Translations under genes and position numbers: made by a program | Shown: positions 1,585 through 27,340 of the stretch, piece by piece | Numbering within the stretch: the first letter of the stretch is position 1 | Layout of the letters: the number at the start of each line of letters is the position of its first letter | Assembly (NCBI RefSeq): GCF_010692555.1 | Contig: NZ_JAAHHG010000064.1 | Location: 1-33,056 of the forward strand | Length of the DNA: 33,056 nt | Source of the DNA: Okeania sp. SIO3B5 | Lineage (GTDB): Bacteria; Cyanobacteriota; Cyanobacteriia; Cyanobacteriales; Microcoleaceae | Direction: 5' to 3' | Notes under the pieces: model-generated | What the model saw: the letters and a program-made list of their open reading frames with translations, nothing else | What the model was told of the DNA's origin: nothing | Database searches by the model: none

Positions 1585-3264
1585 ATGGAAACCATAACGG
1601 TTATCGGAGACAAAGGACATCTTCAAGACTGGCAACAGATTAACTGGAAACCAGTGATGAAGAACGTTAGGAATCTAAGGAAGCGAATTTATCGTGCTAC
1701 ACAGAACGGTCAGTGGAATCAGGTCAGAAGCCTGACAAAACTGATGTTAAGGAGCTACAACAACCTACTTTGGTCTGTGCGAAAAATCACCCAACTAAAT
1801 CTGGGAAAACGAACACCTGGTGTAGATAAGGAGGTGGCATTAACACCAGAACAACGGGTCAAACTTATCCATGAAATGGGACAACAGACTTTGTGGAAAG
1901 TAAAACCGACCAAACGGGTCTATATCCCAAAAGCCAACGGTAAGCAAAGACCATTAGGCATACCCACTATCAAAGATAGAGTCGCACAAACCATCGTCAA
2001 AAACGCCCTAGAACCCATCTGGGAAGCCCAATTCGAGCCAAACAGCTTCGGGTTTCGAGCTGGAAGAAGTTGCCACGATGCCATAGAACAATGTTTCTTA
2101 CGCCTACAAGGTAACAGAGACACATGGGTATTAGATGCCGACATCTGCGGATTCTTCGACAACATTTCCCACCAAGTTATTCTCAATTCCATCAGGAATT
2201 TCCCCGCCCGCAACCTCATCAAACAATGGCTAAAGGCAGGATACTTGGATAAAGGACAACACCACGACACTCCCAGCGGTACACCACAAGGAGGCACGAT
2301 TAGCCCTCTTTTAGCAAATATTGGACTACATGGCCTGGAAAACTTCCTCAACCAATTCCAGAAGAAGAAAGGCAATTACAAATCCAATCGATATGGCTTC
2401 ATTCGGTACGCGGATGATTTCGTTGTAACCGCTACCTGTCGAAAAGACCTTGAAGAAATCCTACCCCAAATTGAAGAATGGCTAGCACAAAAGGGACTAC
2501 AACTGAATAGAGAAAAAACCCGCATCGTACATATAAGCGATGGATTCAACTTCCTAGGGTTTAATCTCAGACAATATCAAGGCAAGCTTGTGATCAAACC
2601 GCAAAAGCAAAAAGTTCTAGAATTCCTACAATCAATTAGGGATTGGCTCTCGACTAACCGGGCGGTCGAACAGAAAATTGTCATTGAACAACTCAACCCT
2701 AAACTTCGCGGCTTTGGGAACTATTATCGTCATGCAGTCAGCAAAGAAGTGTTCAATTATATACGTTCAGAAGTGTGGATAGCACTTTGGAGATGGGCCA
2801 AAAGACGACACCCTAATCAGGGAAAAAGGTGGATTGCTAACCGATACTTTCAAATTCGAGGCAAAGGATGGGAATTTGCTTGTCAGGTCAAAGACCGAAA
2901 AGGAGTTTCAAAAGAAATTATCCTATTTAATATTGCAAGTATCCCCATTGAACGCCATATTAAAGTCAAAGGAACCGCATCCCCGGACGACCCCAACCTA
3001 CAAGAATATTGGGCAAAAAGAGCCATTAAATCTGGCAAAACCATCTGGGATAAAGGGTCTAAATATTACAAAATCGCCCAAAACCAGAACTGGAAATGCC
3101 CAATTTGTGGGGAAAAACTAAATAAGGTCGAAGCTCTAGAAACTCACCACATCATAGCTCTGGCGAAAGGTGGTACAGAGGATATTGACAATCTTCAACA
3201 CCTACACAAAATTTGCCATAAAACCATACACAGTGGTAGACGTTCTGTTAAAGCGGAGGCTTGA
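1585..3264 (+). CDS. ltrA: Group II intron reverse transcriptase/maturase/HNH endonuclease (inner intron)
   Basis: A 559-residue full-length intron-encoded protein. RT blocks are intact: PKANGKQRPLGIPTIKDR (RT1/2), SFGFRAGRSCHDAI, the catalytic Asp in LDADICGFFDNI, TPQGGTISPLLANI (RT4), YADD at 275-278, and GFNFLGFNL (RT7). The maturase X domain follows (LRGFGNYYRHAV, WRWAKRRHPNQGKRWI), then an HNH domain with CPIC at 505-508, THHIIALAKGGT and KICH. All these residues look functional, so the protein could support splicing and mobility of the inner intron. The TGA stop overlaps the first bases of domain V (3263 onward). The ATG at 1585 gives the family's usual N-terminus, but no strong ribosome-binding site is visible. 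The outer maturase has the same architecture but clearly different sequence, so the two introns are relatives, not recent copies. Confidence 0.93.
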   Translation: METITVIGDKGHLQDWQQINWKPVMKNVRNLRKRIYRATQNGQWNQVRSLTKLMLRSYNNLLWSVRKITQLNLGKRTPGVDKEVALTPEQRVKLIHEMGQQTLWKVKPTKRVYIPKANGKQRPLGIPTIKDRVAQTIVKNALEPIWEAQFEPNSFGFRAGRSCHDAIEQCFLRLQGNRDTWVLDADICGFFDNISHQVILNSIRNFPARNLIKQWLKAGYLDKGQHHDTPSGTPQGGTISPLLANIGLHGLENFLNQFQKKKGNYKSNRYGFIRYADDFVVTATCRKDLEEILPQIEEWLAQKGLQLNREKTRIVHISDGFNFLGFNLRQYQGKLVIKPQKQKVLEFLQSIRDWLSTNRAVEQKIVIEQLNPKLRGFGNYYRHAVSKEVFNYIRSEVWIALWRWAKRRHPNQGKRWIANRYFQIRGKGWEFACQVKDRKGVSKEIILFNIASIPIERHIKVKGTASPDDPNLQEYWAKRAIKSGKTIWDKGSKYYKIAQNQNWKCPICGEKLNKVEALETHHIIALAKGGTEDIDNLQHLHKICHKTIHSGRRSVKAEA

Positions 3265-3339
3265 GCCGGATGATGGGAAGAGTGTCAAGTCCGGTTCTCA
3301 GGGGAGGGAGATACGGTGACGTATGCTCTCTTACCCGAC
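3263..3339 (+). ncRNA. Domains V and VI of the inner group II intron
   Basis: Domain V at 3263-3298 has the closing helix GAGCCGGA/TCCGGTTC and a GATG...TGTC distal helix. Domain VI at about 3303-3339 folds around GATAC/GTAT with an unpaired A at 3333, and ends CCCGAC, giving the AY terminus. These are the catalytic and branch-point domains of the ribozyme. Confidence 0.8.
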
Positions 3340-19860: not shown

Positions 19861-22060
19861 TTTTTAGTTGAATAAAAAGTCATGCGTAGGGGCGAACAAC
19901 TCCTAATAAATTAATAGTATCAAAATTTTTTTGGGGATGCAATGGCAATTTCTGCCGTTTTTTTTTGAGCTTCACAGAATGATAATTTTTGTGGTGAGGA
20001 ATCATAGTTTAGGCTTGAGAAATTTGGTAGTTAATTTATTTGATTTTTGATGGTTGAGAAAATGAGTGAATTTCGTGTAGTGGAAATTTTGGGGAGAGTA
20101 GGGAGCAGTATTTCTCGGCAAGGTTGAGGTGATCACTAGAAAACAAAGATGTGGTTGTTTTTTTAGAGCTTCACAGAATGATTTCCTGGTGGTTTTAAGT
20201 GAGTGTATATCTTCTGCTCTTTCTAGGGGTTTTATTTGCTTTTAGCGATACGGCTGATGCCACACTTCGTGATCGCTACTATCTCTTAATATCCTAACCT
20301 TACTTTTTTAGTTGAATAAAAAGTCATGTTTAGGGGCGAACAAGTCCCAATAAGTTAATAGTATCAAAATTTTTTTGGGGATGCAATGGTAATTTCTGCC
20401 GTTTTTCTTGGAGCTTCACAGAATGATGATTTTTGTGGTGAGGAGTTAATAGGTTAGGTGGGAATTATCGAATAGATATTAATTTGATTGATAATTTGAG
20501 AAATTTGGCGGTTATATTTATTTGATTTTTGATAGCTGAGAAAATGAGTGAATTTCGTGGAGTGGAAATTTTGGGAAGAGTAGGGAGCGATATTTCTCGG
20601 TAAGGTTGAGGCGATCGCTACAAAACTTTTTAGGTGCTTCAAAGAATGATTTTCTCTGGTTTTAAGTGAACCTGTATCTTCTGCTCTTTCTAGGAGTTTT
20701 ATCTACTGTTGACGATGCGATTGATGCCACGCTTCGCGATCGCTACTATCTCTTAATATCCTATACCTTACTTTTTTTAGTTGAATAAAAAGTCATGCGT
20801 AGGGGCGAACAACCCCCACTAAGTTTATAGTATCAAAATTTTTTTGAGGATGCAATGAGAAATCCTTCCGCGCGCCGTTTTTTTTCAGGAGCTTCACAAG
20901 ATGTTTTTTTGTGAGGAGTTATAGCTGGGAATCATCGAAATGATATTTATTTGATGAATAGAAAGATTTAGTGGTGATATTTATTTGATTTTTGATAGCT
21001 GAGAAAATGAGGGGGTTTCGTGGAGTGGAAATTTTGGAAAGAGTAGGAAGCGATATTTCTTGGCAAGGTTGAGGCGATCGCTAGAAAACAAAGATGTGGT
21101 TGTTTTTTAGTGTGCTTCACAGAATGATTTTTCTGGTGGTTTTAAGTGAACCTGTATCTTCTGCTCTTTCTAGGAGTTTTATCTACTGTTGACGATACGA
21201 TTGATGCCACGCTTCGCGATCGCTACTATCTCTTAATATCCTATACCTTACTTTTTTTAGTTGAATAAAAAGTCATGCGTAGGGGCGAACAACCCCCACT
21301 AAGTTTATAGTATCAAAATTTTTTTGAGGATGCAATGAGAAATCCTTCCGCGCGCCGTTTTTTTTCAGGAGCTTCACAAGATGTTTTTTTGTGAGGAGTT
21401 ATAGCTGGGAATCATCGAAATGATATTTATTTGATGAATAGAAAGATTTAGTGGTGATATTTATTTGATTTTTGATAGCTGAGAAAATGAGGGGGTTTCG
21501 TGGAGTGGAAATTTTGGAAAGAGTAGGAAGCGATATTCCTTGGCAAGGTTGAGGCGATCGCTAGAAAACAAAGATGTGGTTGTTTTTTAGTGTGCTTCAC
21601 AGAATGATTTTCTGGTGGTTTTCAGTGAACCTGTATCTTCTGCTCTTTCTAGGAGTTTTATCTACTGTTGACGATACGATTGATGCCACGCTTCGCGATC
21701 GCTACTATCTCTTAATATCCTAACCTTACTTTTTGGGTTGAATAAAAAGTCATGCGTAGGGGCGAACAACCCCCAATAAGTTAATAGTATCAAAATTTTT
21801 TTGAGGATGCAATGAGAAATCCTTTCGAGCGCCGATTTTTTTTCAGGAGCTTCACAGGATGATTTTTTTGTGGTGAGGAGTTGTAGGTGGGAGTTACGGA
21901 AAAGACACTAATTGAATGAATTGAAAAATTTGGCGGTATTTTTATTTTTCGGCGAGAAAATGAGTGAATTTCGTGGAGTGAAAATTTTGGGGAGAATAGG
22001 AAGGGATATTGCTAGGCAAAGTTGAGACGATCGCTCCTCAAGAACAGCCACATCATTTAT
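19861..22060. repeat. Tandem array of five long units (about 444-480 bp each)
   Basis: Units begin at about 19861, 20305, 20774, 21254 and 21733 with TTGAATAAAAAGTCATG, then GGGCGAACAA, ATAGTATCAAAATTTTTTT, GGATGCAATG and a GAGCTTCAC(A)GATG segment. They continue through GAAAATGAG, TTTCGTGGAGTGGAAATTTT, GGTTGAGGCGATCGCT and CTTCTGCTCTTTCTAGGAG to GATGCCACGCTTCGCGATCG. Units 3 and 4 (480 bp apart) differ at only about three positions, so at least one duplication is recent. No long ORF runs through the array. It ends about 120 bp before the start of the NACHT-associated small protein. Confidence 0.9.
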
Positions 22061-22851: not shown

Positions 22852-24765
22852 ATGGGAAATAAAGATAAGTATAACCAAAGTGATTTAACTGGAATTGGTA
22901 ATCAAAATATTAGGGAAGTTAAAGATCAAGCTAAAGCGGCAGCTTTTATCAATGAAGGTTCATATATTAATTTTAATTTTGCTGGTTTTCTGCAAGGCTT
23001 TCTGAATTTTTTTCGTCCGGAAGACCGGGAGGCGAAAGTTAGGTCGGAACTTCTGAAAGGAATTAAGGTTGAAGTTGTTAAACGACTGGAAGATTCTCTA
23101 CAGCAAAATCAATTGTTGGTAAATCAATATTTAGAATTACCGATGTTTTCTCAGAAGGAAGCTGTTGGTAGATATGAGAGAAAAAAGATAATTTCTCTAC
23201 CTCCTGAAACTAAGATTATTGATGTTTTTTATCGGCAGGATGTGGCGGGTAAGTTATTAATTTTGGGTAAACCAGGGGCGGGAAAAACTACTACTTTATT
23301 GAGGTTGGCAAAGGAGTTAATTGAGGAGGCGGAAAATAATCTTGATGCTCCTGTACCTGTGATTTTTGAATTGTCTAATTGGCAGAAGGATAATTTATCT
23401 ATTGGAAATTGGTTGATTCAGTATTTAAAAGATTTTTATGGGATGAGCGATCGCCGATTTAGTAGAAGTTTATTAAGTCAGAGAAAAATTATGCCGTTGT
23501 TGGATGGTTTGGATGAATTAGGATTAGTTCGGCAGCGACTTTGTATTGAAAAAATTAATGAATTTATTGGGGAAGATATTCGGACTTGTTTGGTTGTTTG
23601 TTGTCGGGATGAGGAATATCAAGAGGGAAATATTAGGTTGGAAAAGTTGAATGGTGCTTATTGTTTGAGGTCTCCTGAAGGAGAGGAAATTTATCGTTAT
23701 TTGGAAGGTTTGGGTAAGGTTGATTTGTGGGAAGTGATTCAAAATAATTCTCAAATGTGGGAGTTGGCAAATATTCCTTTGTTGTTGAATATTATGGTTA
23801 CTGTTTATCAAGGGGAGCCTATTTATGATGAGGAAAAATTATTTGCAGCTTATATTGATGAATGTTTACCTTATATTGATGAATGTTTACAACGAGTGCG
23901 TAATAAAGTGGAAAAACGTGAAAAATTGTTCTATTCTGAAAAGCAAACTAGGCATTGGTTAACTTTTTTAGCAACGCGGTTAGAGGCTGAAAATCAAACG
24001 GAGTTTTTGATTGAAAATATCCAGCCTAGTTGGTTAAAAAATAATGCTCAAAAGCTTATTTATGGGCTGATTTTTGGGCTTATTTATGGGCTGATTTTTG
24101 GGCTGATTGTAGGGCTGATTGGAGGGCTGATTGTAGGGCTGATTGGAGGGCTGATTGTAGGGCTGATTGTAGGGCTGATTTTAGGGCTGATTTTTAAGGC
24201 AGGAGACATTAAATGCCAAGAAGTTTTCAGCTTTTCCTGGCAAGCAATCAAGAAAAGTCTGATTTATGGGCTGATTTTTGGGCTGATTGGAGTGCTGATT
24301 TTAGAGCTGATTGGAGGGCTGATTTTAGGGCTGATTTTTGGGCTGATTGGAGGGCTGATTGGAGGGCTGATTTTAGGGCTAAATACAGACATTAAATTAA
24401 AGCATACTCCTAACCAAGGAATTAAAGAATCACTAAAAAATTCTCTATATATTTCTATAATAACTACTCCATTTTTTTTATTAATTCCCTACTTGTACAC
24501 CTTAGCTACAGACAATACATTTTTGCAAAATTCACTAATATTTAGCTTATATTTAGGAGTAATAATGGGTTTATCAACTGGAGGCGTACCATGTATTCAA
24601 CACTTTAGTTTAAGACTAATTCTCTGGCAAAATGGTTTAATTCCTTGGAACTATGAAAAATTTTTGAAATATGTTGCTCAGAGAAAATTAATTCAACAAG
24701 TCGGAGGTCGTTTTCGCTTTATCCATGATTCTTTGCGTCAACATTTTGTTGGCTATAACAGATAA
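22852..24765 (+). CDS. NACHT-family NTPase (NLR-like) with RHIM-like N-terminus and repeat-built membrane domain
   Basis: A 637-residue protein from ATG 22852 (MGNKDKYNQ); ATG 22831 and TTG 22822 are in-frame alternatives. N-terminus: the IGNQNIREVKD motif shared with the preceding gene. Residues 35-130 form a helical linker containing an NFAGFLQGFLNFF patch. NACHT: Walker A GKPGAGKT at 139-146, and Walker B LLDGLDEL at 216-223 with the extra acidic residues typical of NACHT. A WELANIPLLLNIM winged-helix-like segment follows. The C-terminus has no LRR, TPR or WD repeats; instead residues 403-448 and 470-510 are runs of x-G-L-I tetrapeptides, certainly membrane-seeking. Another hydrophobic pair (about 528-575) and a soluble tail (RFRFIHDSLRQHF) come next. 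NACHT ATPases act as oligomerising switches in bacterial antiphage immunity. A membrane-disrupting output is inference. Confidence 0.9.
   Translation: MGNKDKYNQSDLTGIGNQNIREVKDQAKAAAFINEGSYINFNFAGFLQGFLNFFRPEDREAKVRSELLKGIKVEVVKRLEDSLQQNQLLVNQYLELPMFSQKEAVGRYERKKIISLPPETKIIDVFYRQDVAGKLLILGKPGAGKTTTLLRLAKELIEEAENNLDAPVPVIFELSNWQKDNLSIGNWLIQYLKDFYGMSDRRFSRSLLSQRKIMPLLDGLDELGLVRQRLCIEKINEFIGEDIRTCLVVCCRDEEYQEGNIRLEKLNGAYCLRSPEGEEIYRYLEGLGKVDLWEVIQNNSQMWELANIPLLLNIMVTVYQGEPIYDEEKLFAAYIDECLPYIDECLQRVRNKVEKREKLFYSEKQTRHWLTFLATRLEAENQTEFLIENIQPSWLKNNAQKLIYGLIFGLIYGLIFGLIVGLIGGLIVGLIGGLIVGLIVGLILGLIFKAGDIKCQEVFSFSWQAIKKSLIYGLIFGLIGVLILELIGGLILGLIFGLIGGLIGGLILGLNTDIKLKHTPNQGIKESLKNSLYISIITTPFFLLIPYLYTLATDNTFLQNSLIFSLYLGVIMGLSTGGVPCIQHFSLRLILWQNGLIPWNYEKFLKYVAQRKLIQQVGGRFRFIHDSLRQHFVGYNR
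24058..24384 (+). repeat. In-frame 12-bp minisatellite encoding x-G-L-I repeats
   Basis: The unit GGGCTGATT plus a variable codon (TTT, TAT, GTA, GGA, TTA) occurs about 20 times in two blocks, 24058-24195 and 24259-24384. Because the unit is 12 bp, gain or loss of units keeps the NACHT frame and changes membrane-domain length by four residues at a time. The unspaced near-identity of codons points to replication slippage rather than old protein divergence. Confidence 0.85.
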
Positions 24766-25159
24766 CTTTTTTATCTCCTCAGTCAGACAAAAATTCCTGG
24801 CTAATAATTATTATTTTTTGGGTTAATAGTTTTAAACTTTAAGATGTAAAATAATTTTCTGAAATGACTGTAGCGAAGAAGTTTTGACGATATAAAATCT
24901 TACTTTTTACTTTTAACTTCCCTGAAAAAGTATCACTCCAACAACCAAAATATTTACTTCAGCTATATAAACAAAAAACTGGTTTTTCAGCAATATAATT
25001 TACTTACAAATGGCGTAACTTAGAAATAGGAAATATAATAGATTTTTGGCGTAACAAAGAAAAATGTTTTGACCGAAAAACAAGGTATCAAGTCTCTCGT
25101 TTTCAGGGAATGAAAAAAATAAACTTCAGTATTTTAAGCAAGATATTTCATCCTGAGAT
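24766..25159. other. Gene-free region downstream of the NACHT gene
   Basis: About 390 bp of A/T-rich sequence. GGCGTAAC occurs twice (25013, 25050) and CGTTTTCAGGGAATG appears at 25099. No ORF, hairpin terminator or TIR element was recognised. Confidence 0.35.
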
Positions 25160-25191
25160 ACTGATAACTGATAACTGATAACTGATAACTG
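25160..25191 (+). repeat. AACTGAT heptamer tandem repeat (STRR-type)
   Basis: About four tandem AACTGAT heptamers end in GAAATG. The same run, also ending in GAAATG, abuts the uvrA start at 27341-27382. Heptameric tandem repeats are a known feature of filamentous cyanobacterial genomes. Confidence 0.8.
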
Positions 25192-25206
25192 AAATGCCCG
25201 ACTCAA

Positions 25207-25344
25207 GATTACGACGAGATAAAAATAGAAGTACCAGAAAATTACTATCTAGTTTTAGGCAAACATCCAGATAAAAATGACGAATTACTCGGAGGCTGAA
25301 TTCATAAAAAAGAAATTATCGGGCAAGTATTATTCAAGATTTGA
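25207..25344 (+). pseudogene. lepB: Fragment of a signal peptidase I (S26 family) gene with an in-frame stop
   Basis: The frame reads DYDEIKIEVPENYYLVLG, then a Lys/His/Asp-rich turn, LLGG, a TGA stop (25297-25299), then IHKKEIIGQVLFKI and a natural stop. Signal peptidase I ends with V-P-x-x-x-Y-x-V-L-G-D-N, then a W-G-x-V-P-x-x-x-I-I-G-x-A-x-F motif, so the TGA stands where Trp (TGG) is expected. The N-terminal catalytic Ser/Lys region is absent; the heptamer repeat lies directly upstream. This is a dead gene fragment, recognised by motif pattern. Confidence 0.65.
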
Positions 25345-26098: not shown

Positions 26099-27300
26099 TA
26101 TTTTTAGTTGAATAAAAAGTCATGCGTATGGGCGAACGACTCCCAACGGTTTTTATGATATCAAAATTTTTATCAGGATGCAACCAAAAATCCTTTGACG
26201 CGCGAATTTTTCTTAGGAGCTTCTGAGAATGAAAATGTTGGTGATTTTTCACTGGGAAGGAAAGGAATAGATGGAAAGATTTTGAGAACCACAAGCATAT
26301 CTTTATTGGTGCTTCGCGGGATGAAAATATTCTGGCATTGCTTCTGGGGAAGATTCCTGAAAATCCTTTGACATTGCTCATTTTTCCGGAGCTTCACAAA
26401 ATGAAAATGTTGGTGATTTTTCACTGGGAAGGAAAGGAATAGATGGAAAAATGTTGAGAACCACAAGCATATATTTATAGGTGCTTCGCAGAATGAAAAA
26501 AATTCTGCCATTGCTTCTGGGGAAGATTCCTCAAAATCCTTTGACATTGCTCATTTTTCTGGAGCTTCACAAGATGAAAATATTGGTAATTTTCCACGCT
26601 AGGAGAGATGGATGGAAAAATGTTGAGAACCACAAGCATATCTTTATTGGTGCTTCACAGAATGAAAAAAATTCTGCCATTGCTCCTGGGGAAGATTCTT
26701 GGAAATCCTTTGACATTGCTCATTTTTCCGGAGCTTCACAAGATGAAAATATTGGTAATTTTTCACGCTAGGAGAGAAAGATGGATGGAAAGATTTTGAG
26801 AACCACAAGCATATATTTATAGGTGCTTCGCAGAATGAAAAAATTCTGGCATTGCTCATGGGGAAGATTCTTGAAAATCCTTTGGCATTGCTCATTTTTC
26901 CGGAGCTTCGCAAGATGAAAATATTGGTGATTTTTCACTGGGAAGGATATAGATGGAAAAATTTTGAGAACCACAAGCATATATTTATAGGTGCTTCGCA
27001 GAATGAAAAAAATTCTGGCATTGCTCATGGGGAAGATTCTTGAAAATCCTTTGGCATTGCTCATTTTTCCGGAGCTTCGCAAGATGAAAATGTTGGTGAT
27101 TTTTCACTGGGAAGGAAAGGAATAGATGGAAAAATTTTGAGAACCACAAGCATATATTTATAGGTGCTTCACAGAATGAAAAAAATCTGCCATTGCTCCT
27201 GGGGAAGATTCCTCAAAATCCTTTGGCACGACTAATTTTTTCGGAGCTTCACAAGATGAAAATGTTGGTGATTTTCCACGCTAGGAGGAATAAATGGAAA
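26099..27300. repeat. Second tandem array: one leader module plus about six units of 169-173 bp
   Basis: 26099-26230 matches the first module of the 19861-22060 array (TTGAATAAAAAGTCATGCG, GGGCGAAC, ATCAAAATTTTT, GGATGCAA, GGAGCTTC). From 26216 the segment GGAGCTTC(A/G)C recurs at 26388, 26561, 26730, 26902, 27071 and 27243. Each unit contains ATGAAAAT(G/A)TTGGT, a GAGAACCACAAGCATAT segment, GGTGCTTCGCAGAATGA and a GGGGAAGATTC block. CAGAAT and ATTCTG flank an A-run to form a small hairpin in each unit. Unit lengths are not multiples of three, so the overlapping ORFs on both strands are by-products. The array fills the gap between the Uma2 gene and uvrA. Confidence 0.88.
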
Positions 27301-27340
27301 GATTTGATGGTGGGAAAAAATTTAACAGTTCACCGATAAT

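Follow-up and report, generated by a model that had tools for sequence, protein, structure and literature searches.

The NACHT-domain protein P0001 of Okeania sp. SIO3B5 carries two in-frame arrays of a 12-bp coding minisatellite. In its predicted structure these arrays form the first two of three membrane hairpins, and this cassette splits the winged-helix domain. Computation of the repeat and comparison with relatives showed that the arrays are repetitive at the DNA level and that their length changes in frame between species. In one clade the glycines are conserved after the DNA repeat has decayed, and in some close pairs the whole cassette is replaced. The window, that is, the whole stretch of DNA analysed, comprises 33,056 nt (contig NZ_JAAHHG010000064.1, positions 1-33,056, forward strand). 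L numbers denote the loci of relatives (L001 is P0001) and G numbers denote genomes (G000 is the window's own). The features are listed in Table 1.

Table 1. Coordinates of P0001, its parts and adjoining features in the window
Feature	Position	Strand	Remarks
P0002, small gene upstream of P0001, 123 aa	22185..22556	+	first ~40 residues share a motif with the NACHT N-terminus
NACHT-domain protein P0001, 644 aa	22831..24765	+	PF05729 above gathering score; alternative ATG at 22852
N-terminal motif of P0001 common to P0002, proposed homotypic adaptor	22864..22971	+	aa 12-47; phmmer
NACHT core with P-loop	23257..23538	+	Pfam match, aa 143-236
In-frame tandem duplication, 21 bp (YIDECLP)	23849..23890	+	single copy in the G004 orthologue
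Winged-helix domain, first part (predicted)	23938..24036	+	helix 370-386 to QPSWL; AlphaFold2 model; VIA range on NLRC4/NOD2
Minisatellite array 1, predicted membrane hairpin 1	24055..24195	+	aa 409-455 (47 aa), 12 units; helices 405-431 and 433-453; TRF, repeat analysis, AlphaFold2 model
Non-repetitive spacer KAGDIKCQEVFSFSWQAIKKS, predicted cytosolic	24196..24258	+	21 residues between arrays 1 and 2 (aa 456-476)
Minisatellite array 2, predicted membrane hairpin 2	24259..24381	+	aa 477-517 (41 aa), 10 units; helices 470-495 and 497-517
Predicted cytosolic loop with PNQGI motif	24382..24438	+	alignment, AlphaFold2 model
Predicted membrane hairpin 3, not repetitive	24415..24630	+	helices 529-560 and 566-600; AlphaFold2 model
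Winged-helix domain, second part (predicted)	24640..24762	+	helix 608-617, beta wing 621-630, helix 633-642; AlphaFold2 model, VIA
Decayed remnant of signal-peptidase-like (S26) domain	24766..25341	+	tblastn matches at window 24759-25088 and 25198-25341

Two 12-bp arrays and the predicted fold of P0001

A period-12 array was called by TRF at 24064-24192 (10.8 copies, score 186), and a second period-12 call spanned 24059-24380 (score 173). The arrays are in frame with the 644-aa ORF of P0001, and the 12-bp unit, mostly GGG CTG ATT NNN, encodes G-L-I-x. The preliminary description had reported one minisatellite of about 20 x-G-L-I units in a NACHT protein. This observation was found to be real, as judged by TRF, PF05729 and codon homogenisation; the minisatellite consists of two arrays flanking a spacer, and 22 LIxx units were counted in both together, 19 of them ending in G. 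A linker resembling the spacer (E..xxSW) was seen again in relatives.

The arrays have a nucleotide identity of 0.86 at lag 12. When the same protein was resampled 5000 times with synonymous codons drawn from the rest of the gene, the mean was 0.68 and the highest value 0.76. CTG is used for 20 of the 27 leucines in the arrays and for 4 of 72 elsewhere in the gene. Because the codons agree more often than the protein sequence and the codon preferences of the gene would predict, the arrays are a repeat at the DNA level, and a convergent repeat at the protein level alone is ruled out by this homogenisation. Tandem DNA identity together with differences in unit number between species identifies them as a coding minisatellite (VNTR). 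At the protein level, residue identity at lag 4 was 0.77 and 0.70 in the arrays; when the membrane region was shuffled 1000 times, it never exceeded 0.39. Both arrays have glycine at every fourth residue (GxxxG) over about 10 units each; this is a sequence pattern, and the membrane insertion is predicted.

The K and R residues within aa 399-603 (positions 403, 408, 456, 461, 474, 475, 522, 524, 532, 536, and 595) fall ahead of array 1, within the two linkers, or at R595. The arrays themselves have no K or R, and array 2 contains a single acidic residue, E492. By the positive-inside rule, linkers with K/R residues are expected on the cytosolic side. The linkers would be cytosolic if each array is taken as a hairpin, in agreement with this rule, and we infer the membrane insertion and topology of the cassette from the model on that basis. 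The membrane character proposed in the preliminary description is thus supported by the charge pattern and by the helical hairpins of membrane type predicted by AlphaFold2.

PF05729 (NACHT) matched P0001 at 30.4 bits, above the gathering score of 26.7, which places the protein in this family. The Pfam scan of P0001 gave no N-terminal domain and no repeat family among its matches, and the lowest E-value in a PDB sequence search was 0.035. An AlphaFold2 model (pLDDT 80, pTM 0.72) was built from alignment A1, comprising P0001 and 44 of 49 trimmed relatives (L034, L042, L087, L121, and L151 excluded); alignment A3 comprised the window and 22 of 27 (L005, L025, L033, L142, and L151 excluded). The model runs from the NACHT core through a helical domain, helix 370-386, hairpins 405-453, 470-517 and 529-600, and a further helix to a beta wing and the last helix, so that the three hairpins stand between helix 370-386 and beta wing 621-630.

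The best PDB match of the model in Foldseek was NLRC4 (E 1e-6). In the VIA comparison, for which the structures were Foldseek's own candidates and the alignment is known by its range ends rather than by residue pairs, model residues 63-644 aligned with residues 94-456 of NLRC4 (4kxf_B; Z 16.2, 330 residues, rmsd 5.5) and 61-644 with residues 193-595 of NOD2 (5irm_A; Z 16.2, 326 residues). The last aligned model residue, 644, corresponded to NLRC4 456, NOD2 595, and NLRP3 534. From the domain limits, we take the aligned NLRC4 and NOD2 ranges to be NBD-HD1-WHD; judged from the range ends, the predicted model therefore has the NLR fold across all three. Some NLR structures in the open form matched model residues 63-354 only.

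In the model, P0001 stops two residues past the last helix of the winged-helix domain, and it lacks the C-terminal LRR, WD, or TPR sensor of a tripartite NLR. The arrays had been thought to replace the C-terminal sensor repeats. The model and VIA put them instead inside the winged-helix domain, with one part of it on either side; since the protein ends with this domain, there is no C-terminal sensor for the arrays to have replaced.

The family, its partners and the gene neighbourhood

Relatives were sought with a profile of the terminal part (124 positions) in 386 cyanobacterial genomes, with up to 11 candidates scored per genome, and were found in 49 genomes when the one-hairpin form was counted. 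The 101 members include 89 with a measurable insert of at least 50 aa; L019 and L046 are one gene. Members with p≤0.001 for codon homogenisation and at least six units were termed repeat-bearing. By this rule, 36 of 88 members are repeat-bearing, the other 52 having no codon-homogenised array. The tree contains 86 members (35 repeat-bearing and 51 other), L046 having been dropped as a copy and others, including L016, as too short. Since the membrane helices of many members are plain, the repeat represents just one of the states of the cassette. A short form of about 450-480 residues is present in the window's own genome and in nine other fetched relatives (10 of 101 members); by eye, L007 and others of this form have one short membrane hairpin at the cassette position. 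The AlphaFold2 model of a one-hairpin relative was poor (pLDDT 44).

When a genome collection (84,980 species) was scanned for stretches of six G-[LF]-[IVM]-x units, at least 119 were found. Of the 119 listed, 16 are in frames classed as NACHT-like on the strength of at least two motifs, a Beggiatoa record among them, and many of the others listed look by eye like low-complexity DNA. Streptomyces (L062) and Anaerolineae (L069) records also matched both family profiles. P0001 matched 60 plasmid records (23 of Streptomyces and 16 of Nostoc). Since 80% of the query is covered at a single place, many of these matches may be to the NACHT part alone. A phage-borne gene was also considered and rejected: P0001 had no match in 50,697 phage records at E 1e-5.

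The N-terminus of P0001 shares a motif with the product of the small upstream gene, P0002 (phmmer, P0002 aa 6-41, E 2.4e-5 in a small local set). A P0002 copy lies directly upstream in all four orthologous loci checked (the window, L016, L017, and L018), and the window's own genome has 21 matches to P0002-like domains. By eye, such domains end pentapeptide-like membrane proteins and a CHAT-like protein in the loci fetched from the genus and family, and a P0002-like stretch precedes the NACHT domain in L028. The P0002 family thus appears expanded and adaptor-like by sequence. Proteins ending in a P0002-like domain often have membrane stretches rich in A/G/V/I that look repetitive (L245, L262).

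Other N-terminal parts occur on the NACHT-membrane-winged-helix module. L023 has an N-terminal protein kinase (Pfam), and cyclase-like, CHAT-like, and AAA-like parts were seen by eye among L039, L027, L005, and L006. At the C-terminus, the S26-like domain that is decayed downstream of P0001 is still fused in the G016 relative L017. PF10502 was found in L017, L020, and L021, and a signal-peptidase-like C-terminal profile, built from three of the members that it matches, matched 5 of 101. The loci of G004 and G001 also have S26-like stretches in their flanking DNA.

Ten ORFs of the window were scanned. The recognisable ones encode SOD, UvrA, PetC, PetA, histidine kinases, and an intron maturase, that is, housekeeping or signalling functions, and no known defence island was recognised among the ten. 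The best PADLOC match of P0001 was PDC-S60 (E 8.5e-6), covering the NACHT core only. Three further elements were observed in the window: a 480-bp tandem unit (4.2 copies, 20034-22035), not obviously coding, directly upstream of P0002; a 172-bp tandem unit (6.3 copies, 26229-27305) between the NACHT gene and uvrA; and a group II intron with a reverse transcriptase/maturase and HNH domain (1585-3339) adjoining petC-petA.

A candidate membrane-anchored switch

The reading that we favour, with evenly balanced confidence, is that P0001 is a membrane-anchored NLR-like switch that has a fast-evolving membrane cassette as its input and gives its output through the N-terminus. Three transmembrane hairpins would have been spliced into the winged-helix domain of a NACHT switch, the first two being glycine-zipper helices born by amplification of the 12-bp unit. 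The repeat would drift in length in frame and later decay to ordinary membrane sequence, with the glycines kept in at least one clade, and the cassette as a whole would be a fast-changing module, exchanged at times. A disturbance of or in the membrane would move the hairpins and pull the winged-helix domain off the NACHT core; the freed core would then undergo nucleotide exchange and oligomerisation, and the output would leave through the N-terminus, probably via the motif common to P0002.

In animal NLRs, the winged-helix domain keeps the ATPase off. The cassette is proposed as the input because it is set in this ATPase-locking domain, changes fast in many pairs, and is exchangeable in some. 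The coupling of output or sensing to membranes that was put forward in the preliminary description is likewise an inference. The motif common to P0001 and P0002 suggests an adaptor relay, as in the motif-sharing NLR-effector pairs described in PMC7889193.

The model resembles animal NLRs (NLRC4, NOD2, and NLRP3) across NBD-HD1-WHD, with Z up to 16.2; P0001 differs from them by its three predicted hairpins in the winged-helix domain and by having neither HD2 nor a C-terminal repeat sensor. Clade 14 of bacterial NACHT proteins (bNACHT) has short C-terminal SNaCT domains, according to PMC12169576. P0001 is like bNACHT proteins of this sort in being a NACHT switch in which neither an N-terminal effector domain nor a large repeat sensor is recognised, and differs in its membrane cassette; the likeness is one of architecture. 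In BASS gene pairs, the partner's motif is C-terminal, mostly after a BELL domain (PMC7889193). The likeness here is a motif of about 36 residues common to the P0001 N-terminus and the adjacent gene at four loci. The motif is N-terminal in P0002, which differs from the C-terminal position in the BASS partners as given there, and the likeness is one of sequence.

Glycine zippers of transmembrane helices have the pattern GxxxGxxxG. Both P0001 arrays share the glycine at each fourth residue for about 10 units and differ from such zippers in being encoded by a live minisatellite inside an NLR switch. No paper joining a glycine zipper with NACHT was found, and among the literature titles listed as matches, drawn mostly from outside subscription journals, none dealt with NACHT proteins that have a membrane cassette or a 12-bp repeat. 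The part of known NLRs that varies and senses the ligand is at the C-terminus. If the proposed switch is right, a cassette in the autoinhibitory domain would sense the ligand and undo the lock in a single physical step, and this would be a bacterial NLR design with direct readout of the membrane.

Evolution of the cassette and competing readings

Close pairs were defined by cores at least 78% identical (n=38, overlapping), and 12 of the 89 members, which gave no clean split of the terminal part, were left out of the hairpin 3 comparison. In 21 of the 38 pairs, the identity of hairpin 3 was lower by over 0.15 than that of the core and also than that of the terminal winged-helix part. In the clearest case, between L009 (G000, C579) and the G004 orthologue L219, identity was 0.96 in the core, 0.44 in hairpin 3, and 0.95 in the terminal part, and codon identity at shared residues was 0.91, 0.18, and 0.80, respectively. 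DNA profiles were drawn for four pairs. That of L009/L219 fell from 0.87-1.0 to 0-0.6 at QPYWL and returned to 0.82-0.93 around IPWNY. As synonymous divergence of the core is only 0.13, the cassette difference is beyond point mutation, and recombination seems the simplest reading of the profile. L176/L199 changed at the same two edges and had patches of higher identity between them, the dip in L004/L024 was milder, and L001 (P0001)/L017 (the G016 orthologue) showed only ordinary divergence of the cassette. No donor of the L009 cassette was found among the 101 members (best identity 30%). A tentative extension of the switch reading, possible but with the balance against it, is an exchangeable membrane-sensor cassette in the winged-helix domain of cyanobacterial NLRs, diversified by slippage of the 12-bp unit and by replacement as a whole at the fixed junctions QPxWL and IPWNY; the lock itself, rather than a C-terminal repeat domain, would then be the variable receptor part.

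Among members with 14 or more GLx units, 33 of 40 (one gene, L019/L046, counted twice) showed codon homogenisation against synonymous resampling (p≤0.001); the counts were 3 of 16 at 8-13 units and 2 of 33 below that. The unit is spelled in a gene-specific way, with CTG in L020 and L021, CTA in L022, mostly TTG in L028, and mixed codons in others, which is what local amplification predicts. L191, L193, L202, and L203, which form one clade, have 18 units each and codon identity at chance level. In L191, L202, and L203, which have the same length, all three residues agree in 30 of 31 glycine columns and in 49 of 72 hydrophobic ones, and the same codon is used in only 8 of the 30 conserved glycines. 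Since the glycines are identical despite changed codons, selection on the protein holds them in that clade, and a repeat without a protein role is unlikely there. The family thus offers a natural series from minisatellite to selected membrane fold: young arrays, in which the codons are identical, old arrays, in which glycines are kept and codons randomised, and plain helices.

These glycines would also suit a cassette that is itself the output, in which the glycine-zipper hairpins of oligomerised NACHT cores pack into a ring and form a pore, a membrane-killing effector. Glycine at every fourth residue favours tight helix packing, the glycines outlast the DNA repeat in one clade, and P0001 has no N-terminal Pfam domain. 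However, the kinase of L023 occupies the usual effector place at the N-terminus, so that the cassette would be a second effector; the orthologue L018 has only short GLx runs; and wholesale replacement of an effector between orthologues is less expected. We consider the pore rather unlikely.

Alternatively, the cassette could be an anchor only, with the minisatellite in near-neutral drift and any hairpin-making sequence accepted. This is compatible with the tree of cores and terminal parts, on which the cassette switches between the repeat-bearing and the plain state 14 times, starred branches forcing at least 11 of these changes; the shuffled mean was 27 changes, so the repeat label is also clustered. 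It is compatible as well with the raised omega of hairpin 3 in 4 of 19 pairs (chosen by hand from the 38 for dN/dS), namely 1.71 in L194/L168 and 0.72-0.88 in three more, a fast change that weak constraint on membrane helices could also produce. The terminal part of L001/L017 was no slower by omega (1.02, few changes). However, in the decayed arrays of the one clade, conservation is higher at glycine columns than at the remaining hydrophobic ones, and three pairs from two clades (L203/L202, L203/L191, and L031/L219) keep hairpin 3 tightly, with omega 0.06-0.17. Because of these three pairs, fast change of hairpin 3 is not universal, and the evidence on its generality points both ways. A mere anchor appears improbable to us, the proposed input role being preferred.

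Length was compared with one genome per species, over the segments from QPSWL to the spacer and from the spacer to PNQGI. For P0001 these measure 62/62 residues; the values for the orthologues are 70/38 (G004), 58/90 (G016), and 65/88 (G001). P0001, G004, and G016 differ only by multiples of four residues, P0001 being set apart by +2 and -6 units' length in the G004 comparison and by -1 and +7 in the G016 comparison, and gaps of 12 and 72 were found in a DNA alignment that begins inside array 1 and covers part of the region. The in-frame change of unit number anticipated in the preliminary description thus occurs between species, in whole four-residue units, and the length in relatives is variable: all 26 repeat-bearing pairs differ in insert length. 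The G004 orthologue is 95% identical to P0001 over the aligned part; it has an in-frame TGA within hairpin 3, and the uncharged stretch of its array 2 is, at 19 residues, short for a hairpin. The G001 orthologue, L018, has runs of three units only and no codon homogenisation (p 0.13), so the repeat is dispensable for the family. Among the 36 repeat-bearing members the insert is 89-226 residues long, with a median of 123; the other 52 have inserts of 57-290 residues, with a median of 140. The somewhat narrower range of the former speaks neither for nor against a preferred length.

The preliminary description had proposed that unit number tunes hydrophobic length, a claim left unproven by L018, which lacks long arrays, by the 52 of 88 members without a homogenised array, and by the overlapping insert ranges. 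Slippage as a tuning or phase-variation device within a population is therefore highly improbable: the whole-unit differences between species, the differing insert length in 26 of 26 repeat-bearing pairs, and the multiple-of-four differences in 15 of 26 such pairs against 17 of 63 differing plain pairs (pairs not independent) speak for it, but the comparison covers one genome per species, the L018 orthologue lacks long arrays, and in-frame units are unable to switch a gene off.

Two further rearrangements of arrays were observed. In L033 (G007, 622-2736), the spacer EIKTVESLKWSSQEFKKSIKQG and part of the next array are duplicated, giving an extra block. In L022 (G027), the GGGCTAATT array extends to the frame end and the terminal part is a separate match nearby, so the gene looks broken at the array.
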